Assembly: GCF_016464385.1 (NCBI RefSeq)
Contig: NZ_JADMLH010000010.1
Span: 193,593-257,592, forward strand
Direction: 5' to 3'
Source: Nucisporomicrobium flavum
Lineage (GTDB): Bacteria; Actinomycetota; Actinomycetes; Mycobacteriales; Micromonosporaceae
Length of the DNA stretch: 64,000 bases
Of the stretch, positions 4,171 through 16,483 are shown piece after piece. How positions within the stretch are numbered: position 1 is the stretch's first letter; each line of letters begins with the position of its first letter. The position numbers and the translations under genes are program-made. The notes below the pieces were generated by a model that worked only from the letters and a program-made list of their open reading frames with translations, had not been told where the DNA came from and ran no database searches.

Positions 4171-5325
4171 TCATCCGCCGCTGTTCTCCATCTCGGCGCC
4201 CTCCGGGACGGTGTCGTCGTCGCGGCTGTCGAGCCAGCCGTACGGCAGCGACACCTTGCCCGGGGCGTTGATGCGCCCGCGCGGCTGGCCGAGCGACTCG
4301 CGGGGGAACGGCAGGTCCGCGTCGAGCTTGCCGAGCAGGTCGTCGAGCTCGGCGAGCGAGGAGACCATCGCGAGGGCGCGGCGCAGGTCGCCGCCGACCG
4401 GGAAGCCCTTGAGGTACCAGGCGACGTGCTTGCGGAAGTCCGCGCAGCCGTGCTTCTCGTCCTCGAGCGCCTCGACCAGCAGGTGGGCGTGCCGGGACAT
4501 GATGGCTGCCACCTCGCCGAGGGTGGGCAGCTCCTGCGACTCGACGCCGTTGAACGCCGCCTGCAGGTCCTTGAACAGCCAGGGCCGGCCGAGGCAGCCG
4601 CGGCCCACGACCACGCCGTCGACGCCGGTGTGCGCGACCATGCGCAGCGCGTCCGAGGCCTCCCAGATGTCGCCGTTGCCGAGCACCGGGACGTCGAGGG
4701 CCTGCTTCAGCGTCGCGATCGCGTCCCAGTCGGCCGTTCCCGAGTAGCGCTGCTCGGCCGTACGCGCGTGCAGCGCCACCGCCGCGACGCCCGCCTCCTG
4801 GGCGATCAGCCCGGCCTCGACGTACGTCAGGTGGTCGTCGTCGATGCCCTTGCGCATCTTGACGGTGAGCGGGATGCCGGCCGGCGCCGCGGCCTCGACC
4901 GCCTGCTTGACGATGCGGCCGAAAAGCTTGCGCCGCCACGGCAGGGCGCTGCCGCCGCCGCGGCGGGTGACCTTGGGGACCGGGCAGCCGAAGTTGAGGT
5001 CGACGTGGTCGGCGAGGTTCTCCTCGGCGACCATGCGGACGGCGGCGGCGGTCACGTCCGGGTCGACGCCGTACAGCTGGAGGCTGCGGAAGCCCTCGTC
5101 CGGGGCGAACTGGATCATCTTGAGCGTCTTGGGGATGCGCTCGACGAGGGCCCGGGTGGTGATCATCTCGCAGACGTACACGCCGCCGCCCTGCTCGCGG
5201 CAGAGCTTGCGGAAGGCCACGTTGGTGATGCCGGCCATCGGCGCGAGCACGACCGGCGGCCACACCTGGTGGCTGCCCAGCGTCAGGGGCTTGGCGGAGA
5301 GCGCGAGGGTCACGCCGTCGAGCAT
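4171..5325 (-). CDS. dusB: tRNA-dihydrouridine synthase
   Basis: 384 residues. A flavin-dependent TIM-barrel enzyme that reduces uridine to dihydrouridine in tRNA D-loops. FMN and active-site signatures are present: VLAPMAGITNVAFRKLC near residue 30, the catalytic cysteine in HVDLNFGCPVPKVTRRGGG, TVKMRKGI, ALHARTAEQ, and VLGNGDIW/VVVGRGCLGRPW. It starts at ATG 5325 only 29 bp from the divergent XdhC-like gene, and no clear Shine-Dalgarno is seen, so a leaderless transcript is possible. The bacterial DusB group is the best match. Confidence 0.95.
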   Translation of the reverse strand: MLDGVTLALSAKPLTLGSHQVWPPVVLAPMAGITNVAFRKLCREQGGGVYVCEMITTRALVERIPKTLKMIQFAPDEGFRSLQLYGVDPDVTAAAVRMVAEENLADHVDLNFGCPVPKVTRRGGGSALPWRRKLFGRIVKQAVEAAAPAGIPLTVKMRKGIDDDHLTYVEAGLIAQEAGVAAVALHARTAEQRYSGTADWDAIATLKQALDVPVLGNGDIWEASDALRMVAHTGVDGVVVGRGCLGRPWLFKDLQAAFNGVESQELPTLGEVAAIMSRHAHLLVEALEDEKHGCADFRKHVAWYLKGFPVGGDLRRALAMVSSLAELDDLLGKLDADLPFPRESLGQPRGRINAPGKVSLPYGWLDSRDDDTVPEGAEMENSGG

Positions 5326-5354: not shown

Positions 5355-5837
5355 GTGCAGACCGAGCAGAGCCCCCGCCACCTGGTCGCCGTCTTCGAGT
5401 CCCCGGTCGCCGAGGCGCTGCTGCGACTGGGCCTGGACGTCGGTTTCCGGTGCACGCTGGTGGAGCCGGACCCGGCCCGGCTGCAGGGCTCGCCGCGGCC
5501 GCACGGCGACACGTTCGTGGGTGACCTGTCCGCCGCGGGGGTGACGGAGCACACGGACATCGTGCTGACCGACCATCACCGGCCGGAGATCGGCCCGGTC
5601 CTCCAGGAGGCCCTGGCGAGCGGCGCCCGCTGGATCGGCATCGTCGGCAACCCCCACAAGGAGGGCCCGCACCTCGCCGCGCTCAAGGAGCTGGGCGTAC
5701 CGGACGAGGAGATCGCCCGGGTGCACCGGCCCGTCGGCCTGAACATCGGCAGCCGGACCCCGGCGGAGATCGCGGTGGCGACGCTCGCGGGCCTGATCGC
5801 CGACCGCAACGACCGGCCGGGCGGCTTCGAATTCTGA
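5355..5837 (+). CDS. XdhC-type Rossmann-domain protein (single domain)
   Basis: 160 residues. Matches only the C-terminal Rossmann-like half of XdhC/CoxI proteins, which help deliver molybdenum cofactor: VAVFESPVAEALLRLGLDVGF near the start, DIVLTDHH, IGIVGNPHK, and the hallmark HRPVGLNIGSRTPAEIAVAT at the end. The N-terminal XdhC domain is absent. GTG 5355 is preceded by CACAGT 6 nt upstream, fitting a leaderless -10 arrangement. No molybdenum hydroxylase is nearby, so the role is uncertain. The next element downstream is the tRNA-like RNA. Confidence 0.8.
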   Translation: MQTEQSPRHLVAVFESPVAEALLRLGLDVGFRCTLVEPDPARLQGSPRPHGDTFVGDLSAAGVTEHTDIVLTDHHRPEIGPVLQEALASGARWIGIVGNPHKEGPHLAALKELGVPDEEIARVHRPVGLNIGSRTPAEIAVATLAGLIADRNDRPGGFEF

Positions 5838-5880
5838 TCGGCAGAACGCGCGGGGTCCCGTAGTCTCCGGCACGGGACTG

Positions 5881-5952
5881 CAGCGTGTAGCTCAGCAGCA
5901 GAGCACCGGGCTCGGGACCCGGAGGGCGCGGGGGCGGAACCCGCCACGCTGG
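5881..5952 (+). tRNA. tRNA-Pro(CGG)-like RNA with aberrant D and T loops
   Basis: The 72 nt fold by hand into a cloverleaf with no mismatches: acceptor CAGCGTG/CACGCTG (5881-5887 with 5945-5951), T8 A9, D stem GCTC/GAGC, anticodon stem CCGGG/CCCGG with loop CTCGGGA (anticodon CGG at 5913-5915, T33, G37), 5-nt variable loop, and T stem GCGGG/CCCGC. C1-G72 agrees with bacterial tRNA-Pro. However, the D loop (AGCAGCA) lacks G18G19, the T loop is GGCGGAA instead of TTCRANY, the discriminator is G and no CCA is encoded. TAGTCT at 5861-5866 could be a -10 box. It may be a non-translational tRNA, a tRNA-like leader, or a pseudogene; the intact stems argue against simple decay. Confidence 0.6.
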
Positions 5953-8155
5953 CGATGGACATGCAGAAGAGCGGCTACCCGTACGCGCAGCTGGCCGCGG
6001 CTTTCGTCACCGCGGCGATCCACGAGGACGCCGCCACCCGCGAGCGCGCCGACGGGCGGGTGCGGCGCTGGGTGCAGGTGCTGCGGGCGGTGGCGTCCGG
6101 AGCCGTGCGCCCGGGGTCCCGCACGCCGGTCGCCGGGCTGCCGGCCTGGGTGACCCCCGAGGTCGTCAGGGGCGGCTTCGCCACGGGTACGCCCGCAGCG
6201 GCCGGACCGTTGCGCCCCCACGAGATCCGTCCGGGGATCGCCACCGACCGGGCCGCCCTGTTCGCGTACCACCTGACCGAGGCCGGGCAGGCCGAGCTGG
6301 GCGCACTGCTCGACAGCGGCGGCTACCGGCTCGAGCTGCCGGAACAGGCGGCGCTGCTGACGGTGGCGTGGCTGCTGCGCACCGGTGACCGGGCGGCGGC
6401 CCTCGCCCTGGTCGACGAGATCGGTCCGTACGCCGGGCGCCTGTGCTTCACCCCGGTGCCGGACCCGGCGGGCGGGCACGACCCGGAGCTCGTCTGGCGC
6501 GCCGACGCCGGGCAGGTCAGCGCCGCGCTGGCCGGCCGCCGGGAGAACCCCCGGGTGGCGGCGATGCGCGAGGCGCTGACCGTGTGGAACCCGCTCGCCG
6601 ACGAGTTCCTGACGCTGTGGCTGGACACCCGCGATGCCGGCGGGACCGTGGCCGCGGTGTTCCCGCCCGGCTGGCGGGACCGGGCCCGGGGCCTGCTGGG
6701 GCGCTACGGGCAGCTCGCGGCCGCCCACACCCACTGCGGCAAGCACCGTCGTCCCAAGGAGAACCTGGCCGTCCTGCGAGCCGCCACCGAACAGGCCGTG
6801 GCGGACGGGGAGCTGACCCCGCGGGCGCTCGGGCTGCTGCGTCACGTCGCCGGCTCGATGCTGGCCCGGCGGGGCGTGCCGGGTTCGCCGGAGCACGCGG
6901 CGCTGCGGGAGCGGCAGGCGCGGGAGGCGCGCGTACCCGCCCACCACGTGCTGGCGCGGGTGGTGGTCAGCCGGCTCGCGGCGCTCGACCCCGGCCGGGG
7001 CGTACCGGACGTGGACGCGCTCTGCGTGCCGGTGCGCGGGGCGGAGGCCGAGACCCACGCGGTAGCGGCCGGCACGCCGATCCCCCCGTCGATCCGCGGC
7101 GTGGTCCGCCGGGCACGGGCGGGGCGGATCCCCGAGCTGATCGAGGCCGGCGTGGTCCCGTCCGCCGAGGTGCTCGCCCAGCTGGTGCCGCAGATCGCCG
7201 CCGAGACCAGTGCGGCCGCGTACCGGGATCCGGCGTTGCGGGCGTTGATGGCGGCGACGTACCGCGCGTTCCGCAACCGCCGGTCCTTGTTGCTGCTGAA
7301 CCTGGAGAGCCAGGTGCGGCTCAGCGAGCTGCCGTGGGTGGCGGCCGTGGGCCCGTACCGGGAGGCCGGCGACGACACCCGTCGCGACGCCCACGCCACC
7401 CTGCGCCGCCTGGGTGAGCTGGCGATCGACGGCTTCCCCGGTACGCTGCTGCCCAACCCGCTGATCCGCGAGCTCGCCGCGCTGAGCCGGGAGGCCGATG
7501 CGGGCCTGCCGTGGGTGGAGGAGCTGGCGGCGGACATCTTCATGGGCACCTTCTCGCCCAAGTTCCTGCGCGCCGCCCGGCTGGCCGGTGAGCTGCTCGA
7601 GGGCAGCCTGTACGCCCGCTACTACGACATCGACTACGCCGCGGTCGCCGCGCCGGACGCCGACTTCGAGCGGCTGTGCCGTTCGCGGACGGGGGCCTGG
7701 CGGCACACGTTCACCGTCGCGGCGGGTGGCATGCTCATCGAGCAGGGCCAGATCCTCACCACGCACAACCTGGCCACGCTCGTGCGCGCGGGTGTCGCCC
7801 CCGCCGGCGACTGGGCGACGCTCGCCCGCCGGGCTTTCGAGGCCGGGTGCCGGCTCACCGCCCGGCTGCCCGGCAACCCGCGCCCGCTGCCGACGATCAA
7901 GGACATCGCGTACGCGTGGCGCAACGTGATCTTCTATCTGGCCGTGCCCGGGGCGGCCGGCCCCGGACCGGTCCTGGACGACTTCGAGGCGACCCTCGCC
8001 GCCGCCCGGCCCGCCGTGCGCGACCGGCTCACCCCGGCGGTCACCGGCCTGCGCCACATCGCCGACGGCGGCCGCTTCGCCGCCGACGGAACGACAGCGG
8101 CGGGCGGCCGCCGCCTCGAAGGCTGGACGACCACCCGCCACTGGTTACAAGAGCT

Positions 8156-9535
<1,380 letters not shown>

Positions 9536-16261: not shown

Positions 16262-16340
16262 GAATCCTTCTCGCGACGGTGGAGATCACCGCACCTGGCC
16301 CCCGCCCTGCGGGGGTCGAGGTAGGTCGCGAAAAGGATTC
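16262..16340. repeat. Long inverted repeat with nested hairpin upstream of riboswitch
   Basis: GAATCCTTCTCGCGAC (16262-16277) pairs with GTCGCGAAAAGGATTC (16325-16340) at 15 of 16 positions. The 47-nt interior holds a perfect 7-bp hairpin (CCCCCGC/GCGGGGG, 16299-16315). The right arm ends 6 bp before the TPP riboswitch. It could be a cruciform, a terminator-like barrier or a mobile-element scar. Confidence 0.6.
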
Positions 16341-16345
16341 ATCCG

Positions 16346-16430
<85 letters not shown>

Positions 16431-16483
16431 GGTCTTCTCCAGCCGCGCCACGTCCGGGACAGCCCGGTCCGTGGCGTGCGTCT

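Follow-up and report, generated by a model that had tools for sequence, protein, structure and literature searches.

A transfer RNA-like leader with a hypervariable anticodon loop before one protein family in actinobacteria

Several bacterial mRNA leaders mimic or read transfer RNAs (tRNAs), such as the thrS operator and the T-box leaders, which imitate or bind one fixed tRNA, and in type III toxin-antitoxin systems RNA repeats lie directly upstream of a protein gene. We analyzed a window of 64,000 nucleotides (nt) from Nucisporomicrobium flavum (contig NZ_JADMLH010000010.1, positions 193,593 to 257,592), in which a tRNA-like element at 5881-5951 (+) stands before an open reading frame (ORF) at 5955-8186 (+) encoding a mostly helical protein of 743 amino acids, a member of a new family that is always found with the element. 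To our knowledge, tRNA-like leaders exist, but none is known in which a fixed fold with a changing anticodon, or a set of mixed anticodons, precedes one protein family. In searches of open PMC papers we found no published description of the element, and Rfam knows it only as a tRNA.

By position, the element is a tRNA-like fold placed in an mRNA leader, as is the yjdF riboswitch, which acts on translation (PMC9142559). According to that source, yjdF resembles a single tRNA (Lys), binds azaaromatic compounds and has its Shine-Dalgarno sequence after the fold. In contrast, the present element has a hypervariable anticodon, may occur in tandem copies, reaches its start codon directly past the stem and belongs to another gene family. 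A second likeness is to the YrlA-containing rsr-yrlBA-rtcBA RNA repair operon, which responds to tRNAs cut in the anticodon loop (PMC7790460); there, however, the sensor is the protein RtcR, and the response is transcriptional. In our locus the mimic itself forms the mRNA leader, and there is no conserved Rtc-type gene nearby. Compared with type III toxin-antitoxin systems, the element has no RNA gene apart from the ORF, forms a cloverleaf instead of a pseudoknot and precedes a protein that matches no toxin family, and unlike the thrS operator and T-box leaders it presents a whole tRNA fold, the anticodon of which differs between relatives. In the Rfam scan of the window, only thiamine pyrophosphate (TPP) and tRNA models reached the gathering score, and the yjdF and T-box models were not matched.

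Association of the element with the downstream gene

Searching the DNA of 67 genomes of the genus yielded strong element matches in 15 (E up to 2.8e-11), whereas most of the weaker matches that were inspected were tRNA-His genes. All 15 elements lead directly into an ATG, and the ORFs that follow form one family. The protein itself is present in 17 of the 67 genomes; in the two without a strong element, the match begins at residue 28 (G055) or the gene is in pieces (G035), while in G043 and G002 the element stands upstream of a broken gene. Broken or shortened copies of the protein gene thus occur within one genus in G002, G035, G043 and G055 (loci L074, L077, L078 and L065), as in accessory genes that are frequently lost.

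The protein was also found in 39 of 354 genomes of the family and 28 of 394 of the class, and relatives are encoded in 162 contig stretches from Streptomyces, Actinomadura, Micromonospora, Embleya and others, the best 80 of which were used. A covariance model built from the first 15 elements found the element in 94 of 96 protein loci (the best 80 stretches plus 16 of the 30 family-genome loci, with some genomes counted twice) and in 27 of 28 further loci; of the three loci without it, L089 lacks the protein start, L196 holds a partial gene and L265 is a weak, short match. On its own this model does not separate elements from real tRNAs below ~70 bits, the tRNA-Val(TAC) of the window genome scoring 67.3, and the relatives with canonical loops, at 55.6-69.8 bits, were accepted as elements because they lie directly upstream of the same gene. 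Eleven of the 394 class genomes matched a DNA pattern that describes the common element form, each time (11/11) directly upstream of the protein gene. The protein also occurs on six plasmid records, and the element is present in all four that were examined, two of these being from Curtobacterium, with the protein at only ~40% identity and the RNA at 90-94 bits. Phage records gave no match, and no IMG/VR hit was confirmed by protein or DNA pattern. No conserved neighbour was seen: within the 25 largest ORF clusters, no cluster lying beyond the gene span occurs in more than 9 of 80 loci. At the level of sequence, the identity of the 5881-5951 element as the leader of gene 5955-8186 and its tie to that gene are both well shown, a role that the earlier note had missed. 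In the plasmid records L268 and L269 a locus-tag number is skipped immediately upstream of the protein gene, a sign that the element may be listed there as an RNA gene in the original annotation.

After removal of exact repeats, we retained 156 elements in 128 loci, excluding the low-scoring L126 (36 bits), L254 (45.8) and L248 (35.6). As counted by script, the start codon lies 2-4 nt past the acceptor stem in 119 of the 128 loci and 10-30 nt past it in the other 9, six of which belong to one divergent family where ATG coincides with stem bases 70-72, in frame with the gene in four. By comparison, of the 34 real tRNA genes examined in the window genome, just 2 have the start codon of an ORF of at least 150 amino acids within -3 to +14 nt. 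Position 74 is C in 127 of 128 loci, and CCA is absent in most, including the window copy, where the start codon follows the stem after the 3-nt spacer GCG (5952-5954), with its G at position 73 (5952). Four divergent loci with a canonical elbow (L255, L256, L262 and L264) carry T-CCA right after position 72, resembling an encoded tRNA 3' end, with the ATG inside the acceptor stem. Upstream, 109 of 128 loci have a TANNNT box at a distance of 13-24 nt from the first element, compared with 35 of 2560 random windows; in our window this box is the -10-like TAGTCT at 5861-5866 (+). Near the element start, C occupies -3 in 81% and A or G occupies -2 in 75%. From the placement of this box, the transcript probably starts at the element.

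Cloverleaf, altered elbow and variable anticodon loop

The earlier note had described the element as a tRNA-Pro(CGG)-like RNA with perfect stems and had proposed a search with tRNA models. ARAGORN reports tRNA-Pro(CGG) at 5881-5953, and the Rfam tRNA model (RF00005) matches 5881-5952 with 50.1 bits against a gathering score of 29. The parts follow in the usual order on the (+) strand: acceptor stem (5881-5887/5945-5951), D arm (5890-5904) with loop AGCAGCA (5894-5900), anticodon arm (5906-5922) with loop CTCGGGA (5911-5917), variable loop (5923-5927) and T arm (5928-5944) with loop GGCGGAA (5933-5939). T8, A14, G15, A21, T33, G37 and the C1-G72 pair are in place and both elbow loops read as had been noted. 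The minimum-energy fold of the window element is the cloverleaf with 21 of 21 stem pairs formed, but its folding energy does not stand out from chance (z -1.31; matched by 17 of 200 shuffles). Such an energy is unremarkable for DNA this rich in GC, so the significance of the fold rests on the relatives. In the 15 genus sequences, 99.7% of pair cells are paired, against 95.2% in shuffles (0/500 reach it), and five pairs have changed on both sides (0/500 shuffles), while extra pair types are not above the shuffles (313/500). Stem changes are therefore compensated, and the body is conserved across several actinobacterial families, which supports the earlier view of a tRNA mimic that is not a decaying pseudogene.

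The elbow residues, which had been thought lacking, are in part retained and in part replaced. By alignment to relatives with canonical loops, G19 and C56 are kept, and instead of the canonical G18G19, T54 T55 C56 and A58 the window copy has A18, G54, G55 and G58, with G also at 57. Across the 156 elements C1, G72 and C56 are invariant, and positions 18 and 55 form the combination A/G in 148 and G/T in the other 8, such that AG at 18-19 goes with G55 and GG with T55; positions 54 and 58 are G/G in 137, T/A in 17, T/G in 1 and A/A in 1. Relative to the canonical-loop relatives, then, G18, U54, U55 and A58 have become A, G, G and G in concert. Canonical loops are kept in the divergent loci L255, L256, L258, L259, L261, L262 and L264, and T loops starting with TGC occur in L091, L093, L120, L141 and L180. 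Base 55 changed a single time on the protein tree (FastTree, 109 rows). A G.G pair may be able to replace U.A in a T loop. Because of the concerted changes, the canonical-loop relatives and the single change of base 55, the element looks like a descendant of a real tRNA, the elbow of which was rebuilt rather than lost. In the body, the window copy and L133 are closest to tRNA-Val(TAC) of the window genome; other members are nearest to other tRNAs.

The anticodon loop combines a fixed and a free part. Among the 15 genus elements the anticodons are CGG (two), TCG, GTA, GGA, ATG, CTT, ACG, TCC, CCG, CAG and others, so that anticodon identity is not kept among orthologues. In the 144 loops of seven bases (12 of the 156 loops are shorter), C32 occurs in 144 and T33 in 142, whereas positions 34-37 have the highest mean entropy (1.28-1.75 bits); base 59 of the T loop is also variable (1.66). 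These loops comprise 57 distinct sequences and 33 anticodons, and the 109-row protein tree requires no fewer than 60 changes of anticodon. Between the members of 28 independent close pairs, 36 of 112 sites differ at 34-37, compared with 2857 of 12671 fourfold sites and 33 of 1400 sites in other columns of the element; positions 34-37 change at least as fast as fourfold synonymous sites. The distinct loops share bases 34-37 with tRNAs of the window genome in 30 of 57 cases (null 18.6; 0/2000) and bases 34-38 in 16 (null 9.1; 13/2000). A36A37A38 is the target motif of the N6-isopentenyladenosine modification at position 37 (i6A37). After A36, A37A38 follows in 1 of 30 elements and in 10 of 10 real loops. 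In Salmonella, cleavage between A36 and A37 has been reported (PMC7790460).

One element copy is present in 107 loci, and two to four copies in 21 of 128. Of 28 tandem spacings, 15 are 4-6 nt and the longest is 183 nt. All 21 multi-copy loci contain at least two different loops beside one protein, which makes a protein specific for a single anticodon unlikely. Pairing of the loop with its own mRNA was rejected as an explanation of the loop, since it showed no enrichment: a complementary 5-mer occurs in the first 300 nt of the ORF in 27 of 119 loci against 27.7 expected, the use of cognate codons is not raised (2.388 vs 2.406), and the best single offsets, among 122 tried, reach ~2.8 standard units.

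A possible decoy function and its alternatives

The reading that we favour, possible though short of probable, is that the element is a tRNA decoy leader gating translation, with the anticodon loop as a swappable bait for enzymes that cleave or bind tRNAs. Transcription probably starts within a few bases of the element, and with such a start the leader would consist almost wholly of a tRNA fold, with 2-4 nt between the end of the acceptor stem and the start codon. The GGAGG at 5921-5925 (+) is the only Shine-Dalgarno-like run seen upstream of the start codon and a putative ribosome site; it lies inside the tRNA fold, so the folded leader would bury this run together with the bases before the AUG and hold translation low. 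The leader would keep the features read by tRNA-targeting enzymes, namely the cloverleaf with its tertiary contacts, the fixed C32-U33 turn and a tRNA-like loop, and positions 34-37, being free to change, would let the bait imitate a different tRNA in each lineage or tandem copy. Once the bait is cut or seized by an anticodon-loop nuclease or some other enzyme specific for tRNA, the leader would open and the helical protein, presumably a protective or repair factor against tRNA attack, would be made. More tentatively still, the leader may be a modular RNA sensor of tRNA attack, a decoy in cis and sometimes a set of decoys, with loops diversified in an arms race and damage switching the effector on. 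The retained fold and U-turn, the free loop, the start codon tied to the stem, the mixed tandem loops and the lack of pairing with the own mRNA fit a decoy that outside enzymes read by its anticodon and that is linked to translation of the gene. The -10-like box at the element and the sharing of bases 34-37 with genome tRNAs above the null also speak for this reading, and the patchy and often broken gene, which is also present on plasmids, resembles defence-type genes in its distribution. There are partial precedents: as yjdF demonstrates, a leader with a tRNA fold is able to act on translation (PMC9142559), and the tRNA-like RNA of the rsr-yrlBA-rtcBA operon was suggested as a nuclease competitor (PMC7790460). 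If the reading is true, mimicry of a tRNA, a start codon and a recognition loop that changes fast are united in one RNA, and the loop of each lineage would tell which tRNA is attacked there, so that the targeted tRNAs of actinobacteria could be read from such loops. Even without a sensor role, a widely conserved leader called a tRNA by annotation programs is a natural test of the flexibility of the tRNA fold through elbow replacement.

Several results weigh against a decoy. Positions 34-37 change only slightly more than fourfold sites (Fisher p 0.02 if sites are treated as independent) and are identical in 11 of the 28 close pairs, which leaves room for neutral drift of an unused loop; such drift may explain the variation. 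Bare anticodon triplets match the host tRNAs no more than the null (49 vs 45.5; 194/2000), and only 66 of 119 elements form the full 21 pairs in their own predicted minimum-energy fold. The protein matched no defence or RNA-repair family, and no conserved neighbour was seen. A cut in an upstream copy of a tandem set would not unfold the last copy. The modelled release of the start region by loop cutting depends on how much of the ORF is folded with it: the opening cost falls from 13.4 to 7.8 with 0 nt of ORF (lower in 110 of 113 loci) and from 12.4 to 10.5 with 24 nt (82 of 113), but with 45 nt there is no release (13.2 to 13.6 kcal/mol; lower in 31 of 113), and in other folding runs the cost stays at 16.3 to 16.1 and the unpaired fraction of GGAGG at 0.36 to 0.38. 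A strict release of GGAGG by loop cutting is accordingly unsupported with 45 nt of ORF, the drop in opening cost being supported with the shorter context, and with such mixed results the release step is unproven.

Among other functions, a processing leader is unlikely. Here an RNase Z-type 3'-end enzyme would cut past position 73 and leave a nearly leaderless mRNA with 1-3 nt before the AUG, the anticodon being unused. Actinobacteria translate nearly leaderless mRNAs well, and the conserved cloverleaf, the close start codon in 119 of 128 loci, the C at position 74 and the general lack of CCA agree with such a cut; however, in the six loci of the divergent family with ATG at stem bases 70-72, it would remove the ATG, the elbow bases have departed from the canonical ones, and the fixed C32-U33 beside a hypervariable 34-37, like the mixed tandem loops, is left unexplained. 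It is distinctly unlikely that the element is a partner RNA of its own protein, by autoregulation or as an antitoxin of the type III kind, with an irrelevant anticodon loop. The occurrence of RNA and protein together in nearly all loci, the tandem copies and the mostly basic proteins (mean isoelectric point 9.0 in 115 proteins) would suit a partner, but the Curtobacterium RNA keeps its high score although the protein has diverged, the 2-4 nt between element and ORF leave no space for a separate RNA gene, and no toxin family is matched. A translation enhancer or a ligand switch of the yjdF kind, in which the fold helps ribosomes to load and a small molecule may be sensed, is very unlikely: tRNA-like leaders raised translation 2- to 6.3-fold in vitro, but with the Shine-Dalgarno sequence after the tRNA in the constructs (PMC9142559), where the present element leaves 2-4 nt before the AUG. 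Such a switch also has no known ligand site and leaves the anticodon pattern unexplained.

An ordinary tRNA gene or decaying pseudogene that stands upstream of the ORF by chance is barely credible. ARAGORN and Rfam do accept the element as a tRNA, but this view is contradicted by the tie to one gene across families, by the 11 pattern matches that all adjoin that gene, by the rarity of so near a start codon among real tRNA genes (2 of 34) and by the unstable anticodon. The genome also carries separate tRNA-Pro genes with CGG, TGG and GGG anticodons, so the element copy is unneeded for decoding. Covariation and the conserved tie to one gene rule out a pseudogene. The earlier suggestion of a dedicated aminoacyl-tRNA, for example one for peptidoglycan, is not supported, given the 33 anticodons in 144 loops, the start codon in the place of CCA and the separate tRNA-Pro genes; no free 3' end is encoded in the window.

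The encoded protein and neighbouring features

The element marks an unstudied protein family. The ratio of nonsynonymous to synonymous substitution rates (dN/dS) was 0.21-0.41 in 11 chosen pairs, in accordance with purifying but loose selection. The structure predicted from a 65-row alignment is confident and mostly helical, with a predicted local distance difference test score (pLDDT) of 92.1 and a predicted template modelling score (pTM) of 0.87; it had no PDB or BFVD match at E up to 0.001, and fold searches gave nothing convincing; a HEAT/ARM or importin-like solenoid was among the folds considered. At E up to 1 the window protein matched nothing in Pfam, NCBIfam or PADLOC, PADLOC assigned no family to it or to 13 members, and the searches of sequence libraries gave no reliable relative. 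Weak Pfam matches of single members (BTAD 0.0034 and TPR 0.21-0.35 among 13 members; HAMP 0.00026 and others, each in 1 of 65) were taken as chance and rejected as domains.

Upstream of the element, the genes at 4171-5325 (-) and 5355-5837 (+) encode a dihydrouridine synthase (Dus) and an XdhC Rossmann-domain protein; the adjacency of the Dus gene is probably a coincidence, because the neighbours of the element are not conserved elsewhere. Farther downstream, a TPP riboswitch (RF00059, 66.5 bits) lies at 16338-16444 (+).
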